DNA from: Bugulina stolonifera
Taxonomy: Eukaryota; Bryozoa; Gymnolaemata; Cheilostomatida; Bugulidae
Direction: 5' to 3'
DNA length: 64,000 bases
Assembly (NCBI GenBank): GCA_935421135.1
Contig: OW285191.1
Span: forward strand, 15,507,700-15,571,699
The notes under the pieces were generated by a model that was given only the letters and a program-made list of their open reading frames with translations, searched no databases and had not been told where the DNA came from. Both the position numbers and the translations under genes were made by a program. Shown one piece after another: positions 1,353 through 43,335 of this stretch; the stretch's first letter is position 1; each line of letters opens with the position of its first letter.

Positions 1353-4300
1353 ATGAGGGCTGCAGGACTGCAACAGGGCAGGTATAATAATAATTCCCAT
1401 GGTTCCAAACATGGCAATGGGTATTCTCCAGTGACCTGATTGATCATTCATTGATCATTAGCATTAGTTATCGGATTTACAGCAAGCATTAGTTGGAAGC
1501 AATAGCTAATAAGTAAGTTCACTAAATTTAATACCAATCAATAACAACATGAAGAAAGCACAAAGACATGATAATTATAATTAATATTAATAATTTAATA
1601 CATGTGATGATGGCGAAACTTCCAATTTTGAATTTAATAAATATTTGTTCAATACATACATGTACACTATGACTATTTAGGCCTTAAGTACTATAACTAC
1701 TATAGATATACTAATGAAATGTAAATGATAATTATCATACTATGATATTTTAACCAGTGAAGTTGAAATTTAAATTAATAATATTTTTAAAATATTAATA
1801 ATTATTATAATATAATTTAATATTAATTAAATATTACATATTTTATATTATCCTATTAGGCCTACTTTTAGTGATTCAACTGATTTCTACCTGATATTCT
1901 GATCGCTTGATTTCGAAATCCTAAATTAAAATTAATTAAATTGTACTACGCTTTTCCTTCATTTTAGAGAGTAGGTCATGAGTAGAGAAGTATTTTCTAA
2001 TGATGCATGTTGGATTCACTTTAACCAACAGGAACGCTATTGCATTGCAAATAACAATACTCGCTAGCTTTGATTTCTTGCCAGCTAAAATATCAATCTC
2101 TAAATTAGGTAGCTGATGCAAGTTTTGTTCACATATCTAGGTGCTATCACAAAGCATCCTAAACATCAGTCTAAAATAATTTCTATGCAATGGAAACATT
2201 ATGAGTTTCACTTTGCTGGGCACAAGAGAAGACAACTCCAATTGCACTGTTAAAATGATCAAGAGAAGACAATCACTGCAATAAAGGCTGACTCTTGGAA
2301 AACATCACAATTAGCCAATGAAAAAGTCACACATTGTGGCCTTCATCATTGATGAATCATGCTTCAATGATTATTAACCCAATGCCTACAGTGGTAATTC
2401 TTTTAAAATAATGCACCGCGTTGTCATTTCAGGGGACCCCCCTGAAATGACAACATAGCGTATTGACATATTTTTGCAATGCGTACTGTAGTTGTTTTTG
2501 GCCAAGGATGGGCTGAACATTGTGTTCAAACAGGCAACAAGACCTTCCAGTAGAGATATGGGACTCTGAATCCGTACAGTGGTTAGGGCAGCCACAGCAG
2601 CCAAAGATTCCTGGTGTTCGCTTTAGGTAAGACATTAATTAGTCTAAAAATCTATTAAAGCTACATGTCCATGTGTCTATCATGAAAAATTAGAAATCAG
2701 AATCAAACACTATTATTACAAAACGTACCTGTAATATTTGTCTTAAGTTCTTTATGTGTGAATATTATTGCCAGCAACCCGACGATTTGTGAACAGTTTG
2801 TTGTAAAAAGATTCCAATTTTTATAGCAGCAGTATCATAAAGGTTATGGAATGAGATGTTAAATGAAATTAATTAAAATTCACATGACTCTATGGATAAT
2901 AGTGCATTATAATGATCATCATCATGACCTATGAACATGGTGTAAACAGAGAAATTGCAAACTTTCGTAAAAAGTGATGGCACTTGCATAACACAATGCG
3001 GTCATTAAGATATTACCATATTCACATATATGATGTCAAAAGCATGCATCTCTTTAGAGATTTAGGACTGCTGATCAGCACACATGTATTGAAAATTCAA
3101 TTATTGAGTATAATTTATTATTTAATGGATTTCTAACAAAAGAATTATGTTTTGTACAATTTATGTATTAGGCATGCTGGCTGCAAATGTTATTATTATT
3201 CTTTCCCAATTTTTCAAATGCACTGTAGGCCATCTCCAACCTCCCCCTCCCCGGGCTCAACTCCTTCTCCATTACCAGAAAGTTATCCTTCTATGAGGAC
3301 ATTGGGCGGTCGTCATGTGGGAGCTGGCTTTGGAAACAGGTAGGTCCATTTGTTTAAGAAGGCTACACATGCAGTCATAGTGAGAAGTTGTATTTTTCGA
3401 TTCCATTCATTATACATTGTATTATATCTTTAGGACTAGATATAGCCATAGGACTAAAACAAATTGCAGTTAGATTGTTAGCATAACAACTCTTCTCGAT
3501 GAAGGTTCATTGGTCTTTTAGACATAGCCTATAGGAGTTTGTGCTTAGGTAAGTATGTGTGTGTGGACATATTAGGTACAGTTGTCTTCCCTTCAGTGGG
3601 TAGCATCTGAAAGAGATCCAACACAAAAGGGAATTGTGCAGAAATATTGTCACTCAATGTTCATCTATAGATTAGGAGCTATGTTCTCGGTGGCAATGTT
3701 AATATTTTTAACAAATACAGAGGAATTCTACAATATAAAACTAACAACTTTCCACTATTAAGGTTTAATCAATTGTTGCTAGCTGCTGAGTTGGTAATCC
3801 AGCTATATTATCTATCGGCATAAACACAGATTTAAGGCATTTATAAAGCTTTCATCTATTTTGTGATTGCTCAAACAGTGGTAAGTAGCTGGAGCTGGAG
3901 GTAACCTCAGGGGTTCCACAGGGCTCAGTTCTGGGCCCCACACTCTTCCTGATCTACATTAACGACCTGCCACTGGAGGTAAACTGCAGTGTAAGCCTTT
4001 ACGCTGATGATACACTGCTATATCAGACAGTTGACACAGATGACGATGTTATACGTTTCCAGAACAACATTGATGCCATACACAAATGGTCTGTTGATTG
4101 GAAAATGCCATTCAATGACAAGAAATGTAAAGTCATAGCCTTCGGGAACCAAAATAGTAGACCAACATACAAGCTAGGTGAAACTGTGATGGAATGGGTT
4201 GACAAAACGGCATACCTCGGTGTGGTCATGCAGTCAAACCTTAAATTTGACCAACATATGGCGCTCAAGAAAGAAAAGGCCTCCAGAACTCTGGGAGCTA

Positions 4301-7300
4301 TCAAGCACATTCTGCATGGAGCCCCCAAAGAAGGTCGGTTACTAGCTTACACTAGCCTGTGTCGCCCAATATTGGAATATGCGGACACCGTGTGGGACCC
4401 GACCTTAGCCAAAGACATTGAGTCACTCGGAATGATACAGCACAGGGCTGTTAGGTTTATTGCCAGATTGAGGGGGCGAGAGAGTGTCACTGAGGCATGC
4501 TCCGAACTTGGTCTACAGCCCCTCAAACAAAGGCGTAGGAACCACAGGCTAGCTTTCCTTAGCAAAATCCTGCAGGAAGAAGAACGCCACTCAGCGCTTT
4601 CGTTGGCATATGATGAGATTACCAGAGACCGCAAAAGTATGACGATGACCACCAGATCGGCTGCCCGTGGCGAGTTGACATCGGTCTCCGCGACCTCACA
4701 GATATACCATGGTAGTTTCCTACCGAGAACCATGAGAGACACCAGAGTGAACACAACCGTGACAAGCAGAACGCAGCATTTACCTGTAACAGAAGGCTGT
4801 AGTCCAACCCCCCTGTAAAGGAGGACTACTGTAGCACCATCAACTACTAATCAACAGCAGATTGCTGTAACCCCTGTAGCCAAACACATTGCACACTGTT
4901 AGCCAAATGAGGCACTCCTTTATACACTTAGTGTTCCTGAGTGTCCGATGACGTCAAAGGTATTCAAAGGTATATGGGTTCATGGTTTTCATTCTCCGTG
5001 GTTAATGTTGCAATAAGCAGCCATGCTGCAATGCAGAACTCTTTCAGAGCTCTAAAAATCACTAAAGTGTTGTTTTCACTTGATTTATTTATGAGTGTCA
5101 GTCTATTGACTTTGTACTCCACTTACACAATGGTGTAATCAAATGAGCAGGGCATCAATATTACGACCATGATTACTGATGATCTGATCTCCTTTGAGAG
5201 TTTAGAGTTGGCATTCTTAACTTCGTATCCAGAACTAAGAGCTAGCAGTAGACCGACTTATAAAGCAATTGCCTGGCTGGTAGTCCTTGCTCTTTGCTGC
5301 TCCCATGGCTTAAGTGTAGTCCAAGCTGTTTATAGTTAGTGTCTAACACTACACCATTATACTGACTAACAGGTTTCCAGTACCTCGAGCAAGACAGCTT
5401 AGTCATATTAGTATTTTAACATGTTTGCTATTGAGTCATGTAATTGACCACTCATGTGGATGTGATGTATGCGATTGAGCTAAATCAGTGTGCTTTGAGT
5501 GTTATTATAGGTTTGTGCCCAATTTTTTTTAGGACGACATATTAATTAGATAAAAACCTGACACATGTGTTGTGAAGCAACATTACAATGTATTCCAGAA
5601 CATCGTGGCACAGCATAATAATATTGTTTTATATTTTTTAAATTTAATATGCTATTTGAATTAATTATAGACACCATCCAGCTAGTTATCCAAATGGACC
5701 ACCAGCTCACCACCGCAGCACATCCAGGTATTGTCTTAGCATTAATAGACCTCACTAACCATTTGCAAAATACATTACAACATTACCACCCTAAAGAACC
5801 TACATTAATGTTAAACATTATGTTTTACAGAATTAATCTTATGCCAACCTTGGATGAAAACCAAGACAGTCGGCTGGTTGACCCATCTCTTATCCGACAA
5901 GAATCTGCTTCTTCACCATTGGACAGGTAAATTAACTGCTAGTAAAATGTCTGTTAGTAAAAATTCAACATGCAAAATCTAAATCACAGGTAATGGTAAA
6001 TAAAAAACCCTCGAACTGTATTTCCATGAGCTGCAATGGATAAAACTGGAGTAAGGCACATGCTGACAAGCATCATAACTGAAGCTACATTGTATTATGT
6101 TCTTGACCTATATTATTATTTGATACAGACCTCCAAATGATTCCCATTCACCTGGTATTCCAGTAAGAAGAACTGGATCACGATCCTGTAAGTACTTAAA
6201 AACGTTTAAGCTTTTGGTTCAGGCTAAAGTTTTCAACCAGTGACAAGGTTGAACTTTTGACCTCTATTGCTTCCTGAGTGTACTTATACATGATAGTATA
6301 CAAACTACACTGTCCTTGTATATGATAGTATACTAATTTCAACAGTGCTTAAACTGTAGAAAAAACTATAAAGGAACTGTAACAGGGTGGAGGGGTGTAA
6401 GGTGAGGGCACCCCATGCAACAAAAAGTTTTGAATTTTATGGTCTCTAGAAGCAAAATGTCATATATTTCAGTACCTAAATGTGTGAATTGGTATAACAC
6501 AAGATAGGCCCATTCCACAAATGAATAATAATATATGCCCTTCCCTTTGCTGTTTGTTACAACAACAGTAAACCAACATGACTACTACTCACAACTAACT
6601 AGTACTAGTGCTACAACTAGTACTTGCATTAAAATAATATTTACATTATTTATGTAATATTTAATGCTTATTATTATGATAATCGATTTATTATAATGAT
6701 CATCATTGCCTAACAACAACAGTAAAAAAATAATATTATGACCATAATTCATAATAATCATAATATTATAATAATATTCGTCATGATCATAAGCGACTAT
6801 TCCTTGCTACTGTTACACTATAGAGCATGCAGCAGAGTCACTATTATTAGTAGAAGTTATCAGAGCAGAGTTGGATTTGAGCTAGCAATTGTATAATAAC
6901 AGTATTCTTTCTCATTATACAGTGTATCACTCTGAATCACAAGCTGCCATTTTCGAGCTATACATACTTGTATATCAATATATCTCTGCAAATATTTTGA
7001 CTACCTAGCTATTTTTTAAAGATTGAAGTTCACACATTACTAAGAACCTGGTGTGTGTATTATAGCTTTTCGCTTCTCCATTTCCACAAGAATGTCAATC
7101 TTCTATCCGAAATCTAATTCTGTGGCTACATCAGCTTGCACAGAATGACATACACACCATCCAAGAGGAATAGCATCATAAAAAATAAAAATAACTGCAT
7201 GCAAGAATTTATCACATACATTGCACATGTAGTACTGACAAGAAAAGTGAAGGTACTTGGCATTCATTGCATTTGTGAATCTACAATAAAATGATGTCGA

Positions 7301-31900: not shown

Positions 31901-34900
31901 CATATTCGAATTCGATATTATTGGGATTCACTTGTGGAAATAGCGGTAGCTCTTTTAGATAACGGTGGCCAAATTGAGCCTAGAACAATAATTCACGACA
32001 GCCAAAAGAAAAATTTTAGCAAAATTATACATTGTTACAAAGCCCAATACGATGACTCGCTTCGCATGGCTTCGTAGCCGTCATTCGAAGCAAAAAATCA
32101 TACGAAGTCATTCGAAGTATCCCATTCCATGCTTCGCAGGGACAGACAATTCGAAGTACTTCGAAGCATCGAAAGCCAGTGATTGTATTTACTTCCTGTA
32201 TGTTTAGGTGTAGTGATTCTGGCTGCAGCCTTTTCCATGACCGGATCCTCTGTATTTAATCTAATTCCTGTTGTAAATGGTGAACTGATGGGTGCTGAAA
32301 ACGTGCAGGCAGCTACAGCAGTCAACTATGGATTTCAAGGTATAGGAGGTCTGATATCTACCCTATCCGCAGGTTAGTATAACAGTATCTCTTGTCAGAG
32401 TGGATCTGATTTGTTTGTTTCACAGACTGGCAATCTAAAGTTGCCCAAATATTTCTTGTTTTGACCCTACTTGATCTTGATGCACTCTTGTACCTCTTCA
32501 TTATGGCAAAATATTGTGCAAGAATAGTTGAACAATGCAATTCTGTAAACAGTTGATAGATATTTTGTTCACTATACAGAAAAACCGCCACCATCTCGTT
32601 ATGTTGTACAATCAAGAAACTCTGTTTTTTCATAATTTTTTGTTCTTCATTGATGCACATGTATACACATGCATGTGACTTAACTTGTACATACAAGTAC
32701 ATGTACATGTACATGTACTTGTATGTACATGTACATACAAGTACATGTACATGTAAGTATATACAGCACGTCTTGGAATGAATCTTGTAGAACTCCTTGT
32801 AATTTTATTAGAGTTGTTGGTATGCAAGTTTAGGCTAAAGCTGGGTATTCTTTGGTATTATTTAGTTAGGCAAATATTTTCCAGGGCATCATTGGGTCAC
32901 ATGAATACCGAAATAGAAACCATCTTGGCCTACTGGTTTAGTAAATATCAAAGTTGTATATTCTGAAAGAATAGTAAGATCAAATTAGATATTCTGAATA
33001 GCTGCCAGAACAACTAGGACTGACACATTCTCACATTCTCACATAGCTGGCATCCTGTTGAAAATCCAATGTCAAAATACACCTAGATTTGATCATTATG
33101 TTAAATGGGATTACATAATCTCATCTGGTCTGTATGTAGACATATATTATAGATGTAGACATGTATACATGTAGACTGCATCCAACAGAAATACATGTAA
33201 ACTGTCATTGTGAAGCACAACAGTAGTATAGTCAGTGCAGATCTGCACAGACACCCAGTCATTTCCGCGTCTTATTAGCCCTAGATCCAAAAACTCCCCG
33301 GGCGGACGACCACCCCACCCGTCCTCTCGCCCCCTCCCTTTCCCTAAACCTCACTCTATGTGCAAAGCCCTAGAACCTACCCCCCGATCGCGGGTGGGGT
33401 TTCAAAAACCTCATCGGCTGTTCCGTAGAACCCAGTCTAAAGAGCAAACCCCTCGCCCGGTCCCACGGCTCGGGCGAGGGGGCGCGCGCGTACGCGCGCG
33501 CCCCCCCCCCCCCGCCCCGCGAACCCCACCCGTCCTCCCTCCACCCGTCCCCGCCCCTCCCCACCCCTCCCCACCCCAAACCCCTCCGCCTCGCCCTCCG
33601 CCTCGCGGCGGTTCTCGTTTGCGAGTCCAGCCGTGGCCCCACGCCGCCGTCCCCCCGCCCATCCCCCGCCCCTCCCCCGCTCTCCCGCCCCAACGACCCG
33701 TCGCGGCCCTCGCGGGCGGACCGTCGGCTGGAGTAGGGTGAAGCGAAGGAAAATACGGGTTAGAGTAATGGTGTGTGATGTATTCTAGAATAGATGATAT
33801 ACGACCATGAAAAATATGAGTCAGGGTAATGATACGCGAGTTTGTTTTAATTTTCAATACGTTTGAGAGTAATAATATAAAACTAAGTGATAAAAAACCT
33901 GATACACAACTATGAAAAATATGAGTAAGGGTAATGATACACGAGTTTGTTTTAATTTTCAATACGTTTGAGAGTAATAATATAAAACTAAGTGATAAAA
34001 AACTTGATACACAACTATGAAAAATATGAGTAAGGGTAATGATACACGAGTTTGTTTTAATTTTCAATACGTTTGAGAGTAATAATATAAAATCAATCGA
34101 TAAAAACCGATATACGACTATGAAGAATATGAGTAAGGCTAACGATACACTTGAGAGTAATAATATGAAATCAATTGATAAGTAGACACGAATGAGTGTG
34201 AATGACAAAAGTTTTTGCCTCAAAACTGTGCAGTGGCGGGGAGGAGACGCTCGCCGAGGATGGAGTCTAGAATGGCACAATCGTAGAATGTTCTCCCGCT
34301 CTTGGAAGTCTTCTGTCCCTTGTACACCATCACGGAGGGGAGGAGGTCTTTCATCGAAACTGCCAGACGTCCCGGAAGGAAGACCTCTCCCTTTCTTTCT
34401 TCGTTTCCAATCCGACACTCGTAGGTGGCAATGGAGTTGCTCGCATTATCACCATCACCGCATCTTGGGACGTATGCGGGTCGGAGCGCGGTCACCACCA
34501 GCACAGAACCAACGGGGAATGAAGATAGCGTTTGCACTCGAAAAAATTCTTCCAACTGGGCCAAGGTCTTCTTTCTCAAGTCACCGGCCAGCTTTTTCAT
34601 GGCTGCTCCTGGCAGGGAGCACACGCTCTCGATACGGTTGAATGTGTTTTGTCCTTTAGCGGTCTCCTGCTGTCCCAAGTACACCATGATCCTAGGTGGA
34701 AGGGTAAGGTCCTTTAGCTCCTCTTCTTTGACATCCGCTAGCTTGGGCATGGCGTGACGAATGTTGGTGTGAAAGCTGATGCAATGTCTCATCCCCTTGT
34801 CATCCACATAGCTTGCCCTGGCTAAGAATGCTTTTCCGAATGCCGTTTCAACCACCGAACCTCCACTCACTTCTAGCACAGTTCCTGGCTCTAGCTCTGA

Positions 34901-37900
34901 CAACTTCACCGTTGTCTGCAGAGAGCTCCTCTTCTCCGCTCCCATGCTCCTACAATAACGAAAGTGGTGTATATAGATCCGACAAAGTGGTTAAACGGGA
35001 GAAAGATAGTACGGTAATTTATAGATATACGAACAGGGCTACTTACATTAGGGTTGCCGCCACTGCACGAGCTTTCTCCAGGCTTAGTCCCCCGCTCTTT
35101 TTCTTCCCCTTGCAAGGGGACTTGGTAGCTTTTTTTCCCTTCGTCGTCGTCTCACCACCATCTATTTCTTCCGTAGCCGTATCGGCTCCGTGGCCATCAT
35201 CATCATCATCATCTGATATTACAATCACCTGGGATTTCTTCTTTTTCTTAGCACAGATTTCATCTCCTTTTGGGTTCTTCCTCTTCTTGGTTGTTGTGGT
35301 CTCGCCCCTATCCGAGGCCCGCTCCGGGGAGGACGGAGAGTCCGCCATGTTAGAAAGATCCTTTCGGGCAAGACTCCCCACTCCTATTATTTTCCCCTTC
35401 TTCCGTGCCTCTTTTAACGCATCCACCTCTTCTTTCCTCTTCTGACTGCACTCTTCTTCTTCAATAATTCCATCCATTTGTGAGTCCGTTAAGCCCGCAA
35501 ATAACTCTTCTTGGTTTTGGACTATGTTGTCAGTATCCATTGATAATGTACTATTGTAGTAGTGTGATGTGCTGAACTTTGAATGCTGAGACTGTGATCC
35601 CATTCTCCCTTTATACAACTGCTCATTTCTTGACTCCTCCCTTTTTTTTATCCAATCCCAATGTGACCCGATGCACCCCGATGTGAATCCGAAGCCTCCC
35701 GATGCACCCCGATGTGAATCCGAAGCCTCCCGATGTGAATCCGAAGCCTCCCGATGCATCCCGATGTGAATCCGAAGCCTTCCGATGCATCCCGATGTGA
35801 ATCCGAAGCTTCCCGATGCATCCCGATGTGATTCCGAAGCTTCCCGATGCATCCCGATGTGAATCCGAAGCTCCCCGATGCATCCCGATGTGATTCCGAT
35901 GCTTCCCGATGCATCCCGATGTGAATCCGAAGCTTCCCGATGCATCCCGATGTGAATCCGAAGCTTCCCGATGCATCCCGATGTGATTCCGAAGCTTCCC
36001 GATGCATCCCGATGTGATTCCGAAGCTTCCCGATGCATCCCGATGTGTCAATTCACATCGGGGTGCATCGGGATGCATCGGGAGGCTTCGGAATCACATC
36101 GGGATGCATCGGGAAGCTTCGGATTCACATCGGGATGCATCGGGAAGCTTCGGAATCACATCGGGATGCATCGGGAAGCTTCGGATTCACATCGGGATGC
36201 ATCGGGAAGCTTCGGAATCACATCGGGATGCATCGAGAAGCTTCGGATTCACATCGGGATGCATCGGGAGGCTTCGGATTCACATCGGGATGCATCGGGA
36301 AGCTTCGGAATCACATCGGGATGCATCGGGAAGCTTCGGAATCACATCGGGATGCATCGGGAGGCTTCGGATTCACATCGGGGTGCATCGGGAGGCTTCG
36401 GATTCACATCGGGGTGCATCGGGAGGCTTCGGATTCACATCGGGAAGCTTCGGATTCACATCGGGGTGCATCGGAAGGCTTCGGATTCACATCGGGGGGC
36501 TTCGGATTCACATCGGGGTGGTATTGCCAAGGGTGGGGAAATGGTTAGACTCCGCCCACTGAATACTACTATTTAAGGTATGAGTTTCTCACTTTAGCAG
36601 TATGAACAATCAGCCTCTAGTCAACAGAGTGAGAGTAAACAGAGACAGCTACCTACTAGTCAGTGCGTGAACAGAGATGTCAACAAGTAGAACATAAGGT
36701 TAGTGTTAAATGGAGTAATTGGCAGCAATTGTGAAGTGTTTATTGTATAAAATGCTATCAAGCTAAAAAATGACTCACACCCTACTGCTATATATTTTTA
36801 TAAGGAGACTAAACAGAGACACCTACCTTCTAGCCAGCACATGATCAGCAGAGATGTCAACAAGTGAAAAAGAAGGTTAGTGCTAAATGAGGTATTTGGT
36901 AGCAATTGTGGATTGTTTATTGTTTATGTAGTGTGAAGTAAAAGAATAATAACTTACACCCTACCATTTTTTTTTTATAGGGGGAGAGACCTCTCGTCAG
37001 GTCGAGCACACCTGTCAACTATGCGGTCTGGTTCTCAGAACAGCGTTTTCTCTAGACAGGCACACGAAGAGAATGCATGCACAGGCTCACCCGCACAAGT
37101 GCCCCGTTTGTGGCGGATGTTTTGATGGGAGGAGAAAGCTAGGTCATCACATGAGGCGATTTCATAGCGAGGGTAAGGTGGAAAAAGATGAGGGAGGTGC
37201 AGAGAAGTTTGATGATGTTTTCTGGTCTAAACCGCCAACAGCTGAAGAGGGGGATGAGATGGGGGTGCTACTAGCCCGCTATTGGAGCTCCATCAGGTCC
37301 GCAATACACTCTCGTCCCGTGGAAGATATTCTCAATGTTCGAGTGTGGAGAGGGGAAGGTGAAGACGAAGGAGATGAAGAGGTGTGGACTAAGTTGAGAG
37401 CAATGTGGAAGAGAGTGCCTTGTACTGTGAAGATTAACTGTAGCGCTGGAGTCATCCTCGAGCATAAGACCAGTGGAGAGTTGAGCTACTTTCACTCATC
37501 GAGCAACAATGCCGCATTCTTCCCCAAACCAAGACTGATCAAAACAGAGAATGAGATGAGAGAGTTTTGCAAATCTGTGCAGGAGCTCGACTTGAGAGAG
37601 AGGTCAGCACAAAGGAGACCGAATACCGCTTGGGCTTTACGTCACATTGCGAATCTGACATTCTACATCTATAAACTCCTAGAGATTGGCAAGGTGGGCG
37701 GTGTAGTGAGCAAACTCCCAGACTACATACTTAACAACCGACACGTGATAGCACTAGACGTAGACTTTTGGGCTAGAGGAGGTGCGCGTCCCTACTCAGA
37801 CAACTTGTGTTTCTTTAGATGCTTGGCCATGATGTATGACTGTAACTGCGACCAAAAGAAGGGATGTCGTTGCCGTCGCCCCTCTTGCACCACAACACAT

Positions 37901-40900
37901 CGCTTGTTTAAACAATACATGAGACAAACTAAATCTTCTTCCCCACCCTCATCAACTTTGTCAGACTTTCTCGGGGTGGACTCGAGTGATCTACTGGCCT
38001 TGGAAGATCATTTTGACGTATCTATAATAGTCTTCTGTCTAACTGATGAGAAGGTAGCTCCGATAGTTTGGTCATCCGGGGCACGAAACAAAGCCCATAA
38101 ACTCTTCGTCAACATGTACGAAAAACACTTCAGCTGGATAAAGAATGTTGATTCGTTTGCCAGATGTTTCACCTGCAAGCTGTGCGATAGCGTGTTTACA
38201 CGCTTGTCCAGCCTACGACGACACAAGTGCTCGCCAGAAGAAGCATCGGTGTTCGTTTTCCCTGGTGGAACGTTTGGACCCCCGCCAACCATATTCACAA
38301 AACTCAAGCGAGTGGCGGGAATAGAGGTGGTGAACCCCGACCTCTTATACTACCCCTACTATATCACCTATGATATCAAATGCTTCATGCCAAAAGACAA
38401 CCTACCAACTAACACCACCACGATGACTTTTAGTGCAAGACACGAGCTACTGAGCATATCCGCGTGTTCTAACGTCCCGGGGTTTGAGCGAGCCAAGTGT
38501 TTTGTGAGGAGCGTCGACAGCAAGGATGGGACGAAGTGCATTCGTCAATTCGTCCAATACATAGCAAAGATTGCTGACGTGGCAGGAGATTTGTTCGGAG
38601 AAAGATTCCAGGATGTACGCGAGCGACTCTCTACCTTCCTCGCGGATCGGGCGGATAGAGAAGAGGCCTTTGCTGACGACAAGTTCTCTAACGTCTCGAC
38701 TTACAGGGTGAAGTCCGGTCTCTCCGGATTAGAAAGGGAATTAGAACAGCACATCTCCAGCGTTCCGGTGGTCGGCTTCAACTCGCAAAAGTATGACCTA
38801 AATATACTAAAGGGGCCTTTACTTCGCTCTCTACAAGAGGAGGAGGGAGAAGATTTTGTTTTCATCGTTAAGCGTGTTAACAGTATGTCCTGCGTGGAGA
38901 GTAGACGTTTTAGATTCCTTGACATATGCAACTTTATCGCACCAGGCTTCAACTACTCCAAATACTTGAAGGCATTTGGCGTGTCAGAGAGTAAGGGATT
39001 CTTTCCTTACGACTGGGTAGATTCCCTGAGAAGGTTGGATCATCACGGACTCCCTCCCCGAGAGAGTTTTTTCAACTCGCTGACTCAGCAAGAATTGAGC
39101 CAGCAAGATTATCACCACTGTCAGCTCGTGTGGGAAAGAGAGAACATGGAAACGTTCAGGGATTTCCTCATCTGGTACAACGACCTCGATGTGGCCCCAT
39201 TCATCGAGGCCATTGCACGTCAGAGCTCTATCTATCGACAAAAGGGTATTGATATGTTGAAATCTGCAATCTCGCTTCCAGGCTTGGCTATCAGATGGTT
39301 GTTTATGGAGGTGGAGGCCCGACCTTACGGCTACTCTCCTCCACAAGCCGCTCTCCCGCTGCATAGGTTAATGTCTCTCTGAGGCGAACTTTGCAACTCA
39401 CAACCCATATGTCTGTTCGATGAGGAGAGCAAAAGTCTGTACCACACTCTCCGTGATAACCTCGTGGGAGGGCCAAGCATCATCTTTCACAGACATCATG
39501 AAGTTGGAGTGACCTCTATTCGAGAGAAGATTTATGGCACATCCGCAAAACCCTGTAGGTCCATTCTGGGAGTCGATGCCAACGCTCTCTACCTATACTG
39601 CATGATGGGGAATATGCCTACGGGTTATCCCAGGCGGAGGCTAGAGAGCCGAGGCTTTGCTCTGGAACCCGTTAAAAAGTTCAGCAAAGTGGCGCATGGA
39701 TGGTTAGAGTTCCAATCGTGGAAGAGAGGAGAGGTCATCCTTCACCAACAGAATGGAGGAGAAATGAGGATAGGCTGTCACAACCTACCGGTGGATGGTT
39801 ATAGCGAACAGAGTCGGACTGTGTACCAATTCCATGGTTGCTACTGGCACGGACACGAGTGCGAGCTAGGAGGGAATGGAAAAGGTGTCAGAAACATGAC
39901 GAATGAAGAGCTCCGGGTGGACACTGCGAGGAAAGAAGATTACATCAAGGCTCTAGGCTATAAGCTCATCACCACTCGGGAGTGTGAGTGGGGAGCGCGA
40001 GTTCGTTCGGATGAAGAGGTTAGGACATTTCTCTCCGTCTTCTTTTCTTCTCTCTATCCAGAGAGGGGTTGTGTCAACCTCGATAAAATAATCAACAGTA
40101 TTCGTAGTGGAGAGTACTACGGTTTAGTGGAGTGTGACATTTCCGTACCCGAAGAGCTAAAAGCGAAGTTCTCTGAGATGGCACCTATTTTCAAGAATAT
40201 AAATGTGGGAAGAGAACACCTTAGCGAACACATGCGCGCTTTTGCCAAACAGAACGGATTCTTGAAGAGACCTCAGCGAATGCTCGTGGGGAGTCTTTTT
40301 GGCGAGCGAATCACACTACTCACCGATCTGGCTAGATGGTATCTAGATCAAGGTTTGATAATTACCAGGGTCTATCAGTTTGTTCACTTTATCCCACGAG
40401 CCGTCTTCAAAGACTTTGGTTCTTCGGTCTCAGACGCAAGGAGAGGGGGAGATCTGGACCCTGATCTGGCCCTCTTGGCCAGCACCAGCAAGCTCGTTGG
40501 GAATTCAGCCTACGGAAAGACCATAACAAATAAAGAGAAACATAAGACTGTCAAGTATGTAGAGACAGTAGAGGGGGCGGCCGTCAAAGTGAGGAGTAGG
40601 CACTTTTCTAGTCTCAACGAAGTCGATGAAAACTACTTTGAGATAGAGCTTCACAAGAAAAAGGTAAGTGTTGACAATCTTTCTTACTTTGACTCTTGAT
40701 TTGACAAAACTTTTTCCGAGTGGAAGGGTGAACTTTCTCTCTCTCTCTCTCTCTCTTTCTTTTAGATTCGAATGGATGTTCCATCCGTCGTAGGATTCGT
40801 CATCCTCCAGAGAGCCAAGTTGAGGATGCTAGAGTTCTACTACGACTTTATGGATAGGTGAGTAGAACTAGACTATACAAAGATTTTATCAAATCCTTTT

Positions 40901-42024
40901 CTATTTATTCTTCGGTGTCAGCAACCTCTAACTCGCCCGATTTATTTTCACAGATTCGTCAGCAGAGAGGACTTTGAGTACGTAGAAATGGATACGGATA
41001 GCGCTTACATGGCCCTGAGTGCTCGCAATATAGATGAGGTCATCCGAAAAGATAAAAAAGAAGAGTTCTACAGAGAGTATGGTAAATGGTTTCCCAGACC
41101 CTTCTGCGATAGTCACAAGGGAGACTTTATCACAACCAAGGTGCTCGGGCAAGAGTGGGAGATGAGGGAATGTTGTGAGAAGGTGCAGCGATACGAAACA
41201 CGAACCCCTGGTCTGTTTAAGGAGGAGTTTCGGGGGGAGGGGGTCATCGCGCTCAACTCAAAAACTTACTTTTGTTGGTCCGCTGACGGCGATAGCAAGT
41301 ATAGTAGCAAAGGACTAAATAAAAGAGGAAACACCCTAACCAAAGAGAAGTTCCTCTCCGTGCTCAAAACAGGGGAGTCGGTGAGAGGAGACAATCGGGG
41401 TTTTATCAGAAGAGGAAATCAAACGTATAGCTATACCCAGCTAAAGACCGGACTCACCTACTTCTACGGTAAGCGGAAGGTTGCGGAAGACGGGGTGAGT
41501 ACGAGTCCTATAGAATGTTAGTACTGATTTCTCGGAGATGAGACTACTTCATTCGATAAATCGGAGAGTAAACGAACAGTGCATCACAACCCTTGTATAT
41601 ATATATATATATATCCGTATAATTTTTTTTCACATTCACTCTCTATTGTAAGGGGTCTCCGTCCTCAAAACGGAGGGTTTACCGGTTGTAGCCTTAAAAC
41701 CGAGCAATAAAACACTAGCTAATACATTAAAAACCATTTACCTCTCCAAACCAAAGGGGTAGACGGTACTAGCGCAGCTTCCGCTCATACTCACCCCTTA
41801 TCAGTTCACATTTCTTCTATTGTCTTCATTCGTAGGTGGGGGGGTGACATCGCACGCGCACGATGCGCTCTCTCCCTATCGGAGTTTGCTACCCGGGGGA
41901 AAGTGGACGCGGTGGTCAAAGAAATTGGTGGCGAGTCAACGACATCATCGTAGAGGCGGGTCTATTTGTAGGATGATGATGATGATGATGATGGTGATGA
42001 TGGTGATGATGATGATGGTGATGG

Positions 42025-42059
<35 letters not shown>

Positions 42060-43335
42060 GTGATGAAGATGGCGATGAGAAGACAAGCATCTATCTATCC
42101 CGTTTATCTATTTCTATTTCTACCCCTCCGAGCGATGATGTCGTCGGCTAACCTCCTCGCGAAGTCCACGGTTTGAAGCGCGGAAGAGCCACCGCCTTCA
42201 CTTTCCCTCGCCACTCGTCACGGGGACGGGTGATTTCCCTAGGGGAGGGTCCGGGGAAAATGAGGGTTAAGACGCGAGTCTTTCATCGAAGGTCCGGGGG
42301 CGCTCGAACGGAGGAGCGCGCGAGTGCGGTGTCACCCCAACCAGTTCAGTCTCAACAGTCCCCGGCGAAGAAATCATCCGGAAGCACCACCACCACTCGG
42401 TAAGTTTCTTATAGTAGTATAGTCAGCGTCGTAAACTCTGCACGGGCACTCCGCACGGATGTAGCCTATCATTACTTTAACCCGTATTTTCCTTCGCTTC
42501 ACCCTACTCCAGCCGACGGTCCGCCCGCGAGGGCCGCGACGGGTCGTTGGGGCGGGAGAGCGGGGGGGGAGGGGCGGGGGATGGGCGGGGGGACGGCGGC
42601 GTGGGGCCACGGCTGGACTCGCAAACGAGAACCGCCGCGAGGCGGAGGGCGAGGCGGAGGGGTTTGGGGTGGGGAGGGGTGGGGAGGGGCGGGGACGGGT
42701 GGAGGGAGGACGGGTGGGGTTCGCGGGGCGGGGGGGGGGGCGCGCGCGTACGCGCGCGCCCCCTCGCCCGAGCCGTGGGACCGGGCGAGGGGTTTGCTCT
42801 TTAGACTGGGTTCTACGGAACAGCCGATGAGGTTTTTGAAACCCCACCCGCGATCGGGGGGTAGGTTCTAGGGCTTTGCACATAGAGTGAGGTTTAGGGA
42901 AAGGGAGGGGGCGAGAGGACGGGTGAGGTGGTCGTCCGCCCGGGGAGTTTTTGGATCTAGGGCTAATAAGACGCGGAAATGACCGGGTGTCTGTGCAGAT
43001 CTGCACTGACTATACTACTCACAACAAGCAGTTTTATACTAAGTAGATATTCAACATATGTTTTTGTTAAGGGTCAGTAGGTTACATTTTTTCCAGGGGG
43101 AGGGTTATTGTCTGAACAAACACAGACTAGATATTTTATTAGCTCAGTAGCAACCAGTACACTGAAGCACTTTACTGTGAACTTCCTGTTGATTACAGGT
43201 GCTTTATTTGAGGCTACAAAGAAATGGGAGAATGTATACTTCTTCATTAGTGGCTGCTGTATAACTGCTGGTCTTATAGTACTGTCTATTAGAATATTTA
43301 CACATTTCTATGATAAAAGACAAACTAACAGCTAA
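28909..43335 (+). CDS. MCT-1: SLC16-type (monocarboxylate transporter-like) MFS protein
   Basis: Nine exons: 28909-28975, 29188-29334, 29560-29703, 29989-30171, 30583-30731, 30966-31338, 31457-31639, 32208-32372 and 43199-43335. They give 515 residues, within the usual MCT range. Exon 1 ends in a TM1 motif IDRGWAWV, equivalent to the MCT [DE]G[GS][WF][GA]W signature. Exon 4 holds the second family signature, YFDKRKALSIAI followed by SGSGIG, in TM5. Exons 5-6 encode the long polar loop between TM6 and TM7. TM8 keeps an acidic/basic pair (E372, R376), at the position of the functionally important Asp/Arg pair of vertebrate MCTs (family knowledge). Substrate cannot be read from sequence; proton-linked carboxylate transport at the plasma membrane is the family default. 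Intron 8 is 10.8 kb because a Polinton-like element sits in it. An AATAAA is at 43370. Confidence 0.9.
30385..30560 (+). repeat. Degenerate 13-27-bp tandem repeat (AATATAGCCTGTGT)
   Basis: Runs of AATATAGCCTGTGT, lengthening to a unit with ACTTTGCGCTGT, lie just upstream of the MCT-1 exon 5 acceptor. The reverse-strand open frame is an artefact. Confidence 0.8.
31881..32181. mobile_element. Probable degraded MITE rich in TTCGAA
   Basis: A roughly 300-bp block in MCT-1 intron 7 with many TTCGAA/GCTTCG motifs, beginning near CAGTGATGAGTGATTCC and ending CATCGAAAGCCAGTG. Its last 24 nt recur at 10748-10771. Terminal symmetry is weak and no clean target duplication was found, so the boundaries are tentative. 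Confidence 0.35.
32688..32757. repeat. TACATG/TACAAG palindromic array
   Basis: Alternating TACATG and TACAAG units form a nested palindrome that could fold into a hairpin. It is in MCT-1 intron 8, upstream of the inserted element. Confidence 0.8.
33216..33221 (+). repeat. Target-site duplication, left copy (CACAAC)
   Basis: Identical to 43020-43025 on the other side of the Polinton-like element. A 6-bp duplication is the known length for Polintons/Mavericks. Confidence 0.9.
33222..33770 (+). repeat. Left terminal inverted repeat of the Polinton-like element
   Basis: Pairs with 42470-43019 with only scattered substitutions and a length difference in a C run. It includes a terminal palindrome GTGCAGATCTGCAC, a 26-bp palindrome at 33479-33504 made of alternating GC around TA, long C-rich tracts capable of forming G-quadruplexes on the other strand, and an inner edge ending GTAATG. 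Open frames across it occur in both TIRs and are composition artefacts. Confidence 0.92.
33795..34190 (+). repeat. Subterminal ~104-bp tandem repeats, four copies
   Basis: Copies begin at about 33795, 33901, 34006 and 34109; the last is truncated. Each contains a GATACACAACTATGAAAAAT-type start and a GAGTAATAATATAAAA end. They are AT-rich, in contrast to the adjoining TIR, and no counterpart exists at the right end. The region lies just beyond the stop of the minus-strand gene and may hold its 3' untranslated sequence, or serve as asymmetric protein-binding sites. Confidence 0.85.
34220..35540 (-). CDS. Element protein with NLS, SUMO-interaction-like motif and beta-rich (OB-like) C-terminal half
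   Basis: Two exons on the minus strand, 35540-35047 and 34949-34220, joined by a GT-AG intron with matching phase 2, give 407 residues. The start at 35540 is chosen because a TATAAA box lies 70 bp upstream; an in-frame ATG at 35603 would fall too close to that box. Residues 1-165 are charged and apparently disordered, with a KKRK...KKKKK nuclear-localisation-like stretch directly followed by VIVIS and six Asp, the classic form of a SUMO-interacting motif. The second half has alternating hydrophobic strands (such as GTVLEVSGGSVVETAFGKAF) repeated twice in pattern, compatible with two OB-like folds. I infer a replication accessory or single-strand DNA-binding role beside the polymerase; the family is not recognised. 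It is transcribed divergently from the polymerase across the 31-bp array. Confidence 0.68.
35610..35615 (-). promoter_or_regulatory. TATA box of the minus-strand element gene
   Basis: TATAAA followed by G on the minus strand, between the inverted repeat array and the proposed start codon; transcription would begin near 35580. Confidence 0.55.
35655..36523. repeat. Giant inverted array of 31-bp units
   Basis: The left arm (to 36047) has about 12 copies of a 31-bp unit containing CCCGATGCATCCCGATGTGA and CCGAAGCTT. The right arm (from 36054) has about 15 copies in the opposite orientation. The arms meet at a 6-nt spacer TCAATT. Each unit contains the smaller palindromes GATGCATC and AAGCTT. 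Because 31 is not a multiple of three, all frames on both strands stay open and read the same cyclic peptide, so the open frames carry no coding signal. The array lies between two divergent promoters and could form a very long hairpin or cruciform. Confidence 0.93.
36570..36576 (+). promoter_or_regulatory. TATA-like box for the polymerase gene
   Basis: TATTTAA lies just outside the right arm of the 31-bp array, with a CCGCCC box 20 bp upstream, and precedes the duplicated leader exons of the polymerase gene. Confidence 0.4.
36637..36980 (+). repeat. 177-bp tandem duplication of the polymerase leader exon
   Basis: The blocks around 36677 and 36854 are diverged copies 177 bp apart. Each has an ATGTCAACAAGT start, 22 nt of exon and a GTTAGTG donor. 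The downstream copy splices in frame to the polymerase; the upstream copy has TAA at codon 7 and could only be a leader exon. Confidence 0.75.
36854..41521 (+). pseudogene. polB: Protein-primed-type DNA polymerase B of the element, interrupted by an in-frame TGA
   Basis: Exons 36854-36875, 36981-40663, 40766-40857 and 40954-41521 join in phase and span 1,455 codons. From the N-terminus: two C2H2 fingers (C19/C22/H35/H40 and C48/C51/H64/H69); an OTU-like segment with D281-N-L-C284-F-F-R and H390-F; a third finger-like cluster near 400-425; exonuclease motifs I (D472-I-K474), II (N608...Y-D613) and III (Y740-N-D-L-D744); palm motif A (D873-A-N-A-L-Y), motif B (K1178...N1182-S-A-Y1185-G) and motif C (D1279-T-D-S). 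The C-terminus ends naturally a few residues after a KRK motif. Two lesions are visible. A TGA at 39380-39382 (codon 808) lies between exo III and motif A, with the same frame continuing on both sides. Exo I also has Lys where this family normally has Glu. Known role: replication of Polinton DNA from protein-primed ends. Other genes of the set are missing. Confidence 0.85.
41522..42469. other. Unassigned right part of the element
   Basis: Contains a (TA)n run near 41598-41613, a hairpin (TCTCCGTC...ACGGAG) near 41660-41685, a 3' splice-like site at 41835, and a GC-richer block at 42120-42402. The last encodes a short basic peptide ending TTTTR followed by a good donor (GTAAGT at 42401). This may be a remnant or one exon of a third gene, but I cannot join it to anything. 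At 42413-42426 the sequence AGTAGTATAGTCAG copies the element's own tip. Confidence 0.5.
41970..42068 (+). repeat. (GAT)n microsatellite
   Basis: An imperfect GATGATGGT/GAT repeat of about 100 bp inside the element, producing a Met-rich spurious frame. Confidence 0.92.
42470..43019 (-). repeat. Right terminal inverted repeat of the Polinton-like element
   Basis: Reverse complement of 33222-33770, ending CTATACTACT at the target duplication. Differences from the left copy are few (for example ACCCAGTC versus ACCCGGTC in the same orientation), which points to recent insertion or gene conversion between the ends. Confidence 0.92.
43020..43025 (+). repeat. Target-site duplication, right copy (CACAAC)
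   Basis: Exact match to 33216-33221. Confidence 0.9.

Follow-up and report, generated by a model that had tools for sequence, protein, structure and literature searches.

How does a mobile element spread when it carries its own DNA polymerase and no recognisable integrase? The question is raised by a compact element in a stretch of 64,000 nucleotides from Bugulina stolonifera (contig OW285191.1, positions 15,507,700 to 15,571,699 of the forward strand), referred to below as the window. We consider it probable, at about 70%, that the element is Polinton-derived, copies itself, and integrates by means of a Polinton integrase supplied in trans. An earlier note on the window, made from its letters alone, had described a Polinton-like element with only a polymerase and an accessory gene, either a minimal lineage integrated in trans or a deletion derivative. 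The limits it gave, 33222..43019, are exact at both ends (9,798 bp), and the termini, the 6-bp target duplication and the polymerase type were all found as described. The duplication, CACAAC, matches perfectly on both sides. The terminal inverted repeats (TIRs) are about 550 bp long; their outer arms (33222-33519 and 42722-43019) are complementary at 98%, and beyond these the repeat extends with lower conservation to 33770 and 42470. Long TIRs with an (AGT)2 or (AG)3 end motif, as expected of a Polinton/Maverick, are thus present: the left TIR starts with AGTAGTATAG, that is, with the (AGT)2 motif reported for vertebrate Mavericks (PMC8097293). Since (AGT)2 is the commonest end among intact vertebrate Mavericks in the portion of that source concerned, the element can be assigned to the Maverick class from its first six bases. 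The four 2-kb bins that lie fully within the element have a GC content of 45-49%, compared to 32-42% in the bins outside it.

The polymerase has the features of a Polinton-type, protein-primed PolB. The piece up to the stop retrieved 59 homologs, mostly unnamed metagenomic proteins; the best 25 are 770 to 1,346 amino acids (aa) long, and just two have an organism in their name, both of them animals (Patiria and Paramuricea). Pfam finds C2H2 fingers at the start and, behind the stop, matches to Vsr and, below threshold, to DNA_pol_B_2. Among eight proteins scanned in this way, seven of them polymerase homologs, two passed the DNA_pol_B_2 cut-off, and Vsr matches were also present. In the alignment of homologs, the OTU-like DNLCFFR and His motifs, the exonuclease motifs and palm motifs A and B all align, and the Vsr-like insert, whose motif is kept in relatives, is located between palm motifs A and B. 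A terminal-protein region is probable in this fusion, and the aligned Cys and His motifs suggest an OTU-like protease domain. For comparison, the order terminal protein, vOTU, exonuclease, palm is given for polinton polymerases in part of PMC11071308, a PolB with an OTU-like domain enters the definition of adintoviruses (in the section concerned of PMC11071296), and a VSR insert marks group I Mavericks (as stated in a passage of PMC10328495). No relative of the element was confirmed by tblastn in IMG/VR and GTDB contigs.

As the earlier note had stated, no recognisable integrase or packaging ATPase and no protease or capsid domain was found in the element by Pfam scans and Polinton protein queries. 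Ten protein queries taken from Polinton-type elements of this genome (two integrases, an ATPase and seven other open reading frames, ORFs) gave nothing better than E 0.035 against the element. That best value came from the ATPase, for which Pfam gave no match either. The two integrases, although able to detect one another (26% identity, E 2e-19 and 1e-21), reached nothing better than E 0.19, and among the 77 Polinton-type integrase matches scored on contigs C1-C4, none fell inside 44 element intervals. With the chromodomain integrase described below (L091) as query, the rve integrase with chromodomain that characterises adintoviruses was not detected in the element. Pfam scans of the element's ORFs contained no capsid domain, and the Polinton ORF queries, among which capsid identity was not assigned, were null; nor did the scanned ORFs match an Ulp1/adenovirus-type protease in Pfam, no such protease having been used as a direct query. 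Profile searches of 41522-42469, proposed by the earlier note, revealed no recognisable gene (in Pfam, an ORF at 41763-42176 matched 60KD_IMP alone, below threshold, at E 0.008). Because no integrase was found, the element is not filed as a Polinton; at the level of replication and target site it behaves Polinton-like.

A search of the whole assembly (235 Mb, 27 contigs) for copies sharing the TIRs, also proposed by the earlier note, revealed a large family. The 27-nt element end had 986 matches with up to three mismatches (490 forward and 496 reverse), compared to 0 for the reversed control pattern; such matches are therefore not due to chance. If ends pair, about 460 insertions can be estimated, short derivatives included, once 29 places with fused ends are removed. 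Pairing made use of 100 of the 986 end places, all without mismatch and on contigs C1-C4: 88 formed 44 neighbouring pairs and 12 stayed unpaired. Sizes were uniform, with 29 of the 44 pairs spanning 9.4-10.0 kb; the other 15 measured 40 nt, 2.8, 3.2, 8.1-9.1 (seven pairs), 10.4-11.4 (four pairs) and 20.7 kb. Over its outermost 270 nt, the TIR showed 0 to 4 differences from a reference end, and no gaps, in 50 of 64 end sequences, a set that counts the window's left end twice. The remaining 14 consisted of four readings of one fused-end palindrome and of ten ends 8 to 195 positions off, some possibly through insertions or deletions. In each of the 17 pairs for which both ends were available (16 plus the window), a perfect 6-bp duplication was present, as in Polintons/Mavericks, and the duplicated sites favour A-T-A-T at positions 2-5 (12, 13, 11 and 13 of 17). 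Near-identical copies with perfect duplications support well the recent mobility that had been suggested.

Some copies depart from this pattern. At 29 places (up to three mismatches), one of them C1:14505550-14505589, two ends are joined into a 40-nt palindrome. The fused-end palindrome L043 is flanked by a perfect 6-bp duplication, CTCATC; at L060, a further, less perfect one, no duplication was seen. These palindromes look like scars of recombination between two ends at the shared GTGCAGATCTGCAC, or else excision scars, and would be comparable to solo long terminal repeats (LTRs). A 2.8-kb derivative (C1:19723371-19726161) has kept the accessory gene and is too short to hold the polymerase. 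At L059, the same 27-nt end is found on a more diverged relative (77% identity across 525 nt in the polymerase region), which represents a further subfamily.

The coding state of the copies was then scored, taking the best candidates only, that is, the copies nearest the window copy. Of 58 polymerase copies scored (431 candidates), the window copy alone has an 809-aa frame; the frames of the other 57 are 1,195 to 1,311 aa long, and within the match 53 of these have no stop and four have one TGA. The accessory exon has no stop in 148 of 150 scored copies (341 candidates, 98-100% identity), and neither has the last polymerase exon in 150 of 150 (505 candidates, 97-100% identity). The in-frame TGA in the window's polymerase had gone unmentioned in the earlier note. 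Compared with the diverged copy L071, the window copy gave ratios of nonsynonymous to synonymous substitution rates (Ka/Ks) of 0.151 (697 codons) and 0.141 (353 codons); the comparison with L070, with few changes, gave 0.314 (303 codons) and 0.218 (374 codons). These ratios indicate that purifying selection acted on the polymerase. Low Ka/Ks together with open copies argues that the polymerase was needed while the subfamilies spread.

These results bear on whether the element arose by ordinary internal deletion from one of the genome's full Polintons and was retained by chance. Gene loss is known in Polintons, as part of PMC4028283 records, and the family has derivatives of its own, namely the 2.8-kb pair with the accessory gene and the 3.2-kb pair. 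Against this stand the uniform size, the selection on the polymerase, and the element's own putative introns and central palindrome. In addition, the closest integrase-linked polymerase found shares no more than 36-52% identity with that of the element, and no parent with a matching TIR interior occurred among the loci read. A one-off deletion derivative is contradicted because the family is uniform, high-copy and endowed with conserved, selected genes; we consider such an origin very unlikely and favour the minimal lineage, with its own polymerase and integration in trans. We conclude that the family is real, high-copy and Polinton-derived.

If an integrase is supplied in trans, where might it come from? 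Three groups of integrase-bearing Polinton-type elements were encountered in the genome. In the first, the VSR-less Polintons, the TIRs of one copy agree at 99.4% across the 341 nt compared, and this copy encodes a 310-aa rve integrase and a Pox_A32-type ATPase, besides other ORFs with no Pfam name above cut-off. The integrase genes of these Polintons are open in 6 of 6 cases. Their ends are AGTAGTATAG or AGTAGTATAA, and 6-bp duplications were seen in the three copies with both ends read (AGTAGTATAGACTCG with TAATAT, AGTAGTATAGAAGTA with GATTAC and AGTAGTATAAAAGTA with ATAGCT); two additional left ends are AGTAGTATAAAAGTA. The first 9-10 bases are therefore common to these Polintons and the compact element, and the 3-4 bases that follow (AGT)2 (ATA, ATAG) are suggestive of the same enzyme. 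The polymerases of the two resemble each other weakly, with short matches at 23-32% identity. In the second group, the VSR-type family (L068, L069), the polymerase is 36-52% identical to the window's. That of L068 has a YQFHGC motif similar to the one in the compact element's Vsr-like domain, and beside it lies the gene of the L091 integrase, which contains a chromodomain and matches rve slightly below the Pfam cut-off. A candidate terminus of this family, AGTAGTATA upstream of the polymerase at L092, was rejected for want of an inverted partner. The third, high-copy group has a 359-aa integrase frame, 41% identical to the VSR-type integrase, with dozens of near-identical genes and many identical scores (114 of 398 candidates scored). 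Any of the three families may be the helper.

The VSR-type family also bears on the idea that the element needs no helper, the Vsr-like nuclease in the polymerase, or some other undetected function, cutting the target or the ends. A Vsr-like domain is indeed present, with its motif kept in relatives. Vsr enzymes are mismatch nickases, which counts against such a role, and the L068 polymerase, with its similar motif, adjoins an integrase gene. The 6-bp duplication fits Polinton integrases, and the VSR-like insert is a mark of group I Mavericks, elements described with an rve integrase of their own in the portion of PMC10328495 concerned. Self-sufficiency therefore appears unlikely.

A helper could also be encoded by the host or by an LTR-type rve gene. 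The genome is rich in rve genes: a first look with the Pfam rve model gave 986 candidates, of which 150 were scored. This search was swamped by other rve elements, none of the 150 lying near strong PF03175 matches, and Polinton integrases were used as queries instead. LTR-type integrases usually use TG..CA ends and produce duplications of 4-6 bp. The combination seen here, (AGT)2 ends with 6-bp duplications, is the one reported for Mavericks (PMC8097293, in part). A helper from outside the Polintons is accordingly held to be quite improbable.

The positions of the copies were also compared with those of the full Polintons. At C1:34.62 Mb (C1:34619851; L056:1527-1626), a compact copy flanked by its own CCTAAT duplication is followed, after 98 bp, by a VSR-less Polinton with its left end facing the copy; about 0.008 neighbours within 100 bp would be expected among nine Polinton ends (9 x 980 x 200 / 235 million). 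Compact elements were found within 12 kb of 5 of 77 Polinton integrases, compared to a uniform expectation of 1.1 (P = 0.004). This excess could be explained by a general clustering of mobile elements.

Integration by a Polinton integrase in trans would proceed as follows. The element would keep the replication module alone, namely the protein-primed polymerase fusion and a tandem OB-fold-like protein. At the (AGT)2 ends, the polymerase would use its own terminal protein as primer, starting by jump-back, as in adenoviruses, and a linear molecule would then be copied. An RVE-type integrase from a full Polinton of the same genome would join this linear copy to a target cut with a 6-bp stagger, a step suggested by the termini and the duplication length. 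Several points weigh against this scenario. The (AGT)2 motif is common among Mavericks, so that a specific helper is indicated by 3-4 extra shared bases alone, and the TIRs of the element and of the Polintons are unrelated beyond base 10. The polymerase groups with the VSR-type element, whereas the Polintons with matching ends are the VSR-less ones. The neighbour at 98 bp was noticed post hoc and is a single case out of the nine Polinton ends seen. The terminal-protein and OTU domains are suggested by motifs and not by structure. Finally, the window copy itself is broken, with its in-frame TGA and an exonuclease motif I that departs from the four relatives compared.

The features of the window copy are listed in Table 1. 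Two genes diverge from the central minisatellite, the polymerase rightward and the accessory gene leftward. The putative polymerase exon borders follow the GT-AG rule and keep the reading frame; such introns suggest a eukaryotic host. The accessory product is predicted to be a tandem OB-fold-like protein, and it probably binds single-stranded DNA; its profile had no match up to E 10 among PDB sequences. A small ORF in the TIR of a VSR-less Polinton (L082:8667-8993) is profile-similar to it and, being placed in a TIR, is expected at both Polinton ends. Minisatellite units in both orientations were also found in nine of nine other copies inspected (L072-L080). The 31-nt repeat (35623-36576) has long open stretches in several frames of both strands, and its unit count differs among copies. 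A 105-bp tandem repeat lies directly inside the left TIR (33786-34171), and a reverse transcriptase fragment (RVT_1) is present elsewhere in the window (3889-4818).

Table 1. Features of the compact element and its flanks, in window coordinates
Feature	Position	Strand	Remarks
Left target-site duplication	33216..33221		CACAAC
Left TIR	33222..33770	+	starts AGTAGTATAG
Element end with imperfect palindrome	33222..33252		centre AGATCT
Accessory gene, exon 2 (ORF 34220-34945)	34220..34949	-	predicted tandem OB-fold-like protein; model, structure comparison and homologs
Accessory gene, exon 1 (charged tail)	35047..35603	-	putative splice sites, frame-consistent
Central minisatellite, 31-nt units	35668..36505		long inverted repeat, arms 35668-36047 and 36126-36505, 96%
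Polymerase, likely first coding exon	36854..36875	+	putative; within 177-nt tandem duplication 36631-36979
Polymerase, main exon	36981..40663	+
C2H2 fingers	37007-37114	+
OTU-like Cys motif	37799-37828	+
OTU-like His motif	38120-38140	+
Third finger	38168-38197	+
Exo motifs	38363-39193	+
In-frame TGA of the window copy	39380..39382	+
Palm motif A	39566-39598	+
Vsr-like insert	about 39824-39991	+
Motif B	40490-40516	+
Polymerase, exon 3	40766..40857	+	putative splice sites
Polymerase, last exon	40954..41521	+	palm motif C (MDTDSAY) at 40988-41008
Right TIR	42470..43019	-
Right target-site duplication	43020..43025		CACAAC

How does this family compare with known systems? Group I Polintons/Mavericks and adintoviruses resemble it in polymerase architecture (judged by motifs), TIRs, (AGT)2 end and 6-bp duplication. 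The element differs from them in that the searches detected neither an rve integrase nor a packaging ATPase and no protease or capsid domain was seen; it also differs by its putative introns and its hundreds of copies, many near-identical. It is 9.8 kb long, compared to typically 15-25 kb for Polintons (PMC6431247, in part). Bidnaviruses share a Polinton-derived PolB, acquired from a polintovirus according to a passage of PMC4061559, and TIRs; a parvovirus-type helicase or capsid domain, as in bidnaviruses, was not seen in Pfam scans of the element. Like non-autonomous DNA transposons of the miniature inverted-repeat (MITE-like) kind, the element would need an enzyme made elsewhere; unlike them, it encodes its own replicase, kept under selection. 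Cheating transposons usually drop all genes and borrow a transposase. Here the division is a different one, replication being kept and selected and integration dropped. If this is confirmed, the replication and integration halves of Polintons would be separable, and testable within one genome. A further suggestion is that hundreds of copies are within reach of a Polinton-class replicon that carries no virion genes itself. A doubtful extension is that the family is a replication-autonomous Polinton satellite, equivalent among Polintons to satellite viruses: polymerase and single-stranded DNA-binding protein would be its own, the integrase would come from the helper, and the helper's capsid might also serve for passage between cells.

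No description of an integrase-less, polymerase-bearing Polinton family was met in the open-licence PMC literature searched, which is weak evidence of novelty. The nearest known states, as far as the sources concerned go, are capsid-less Polintons (PMC4028283) and polinton-derived plasmids (PMC11071308). Part of the former reports nine Polintons that lack the major capsid protein, protease and ATPase; they share with the element the loss of the morphogenetic module, and the element is also without an integrase. Cytoplasmic linear plasmids and transpovirons are presented, in part of PMC11071308, as replicons derived from polintons or polinton-like viruses that have lost the structural module. 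They replicate by protein-primed PolB as the element would; the element is instead chromosomal, with target duplications. If confirmed, it would parallel, within chromosomes, the passage from polinton to plasmid that is proposed there for linear plasmids.
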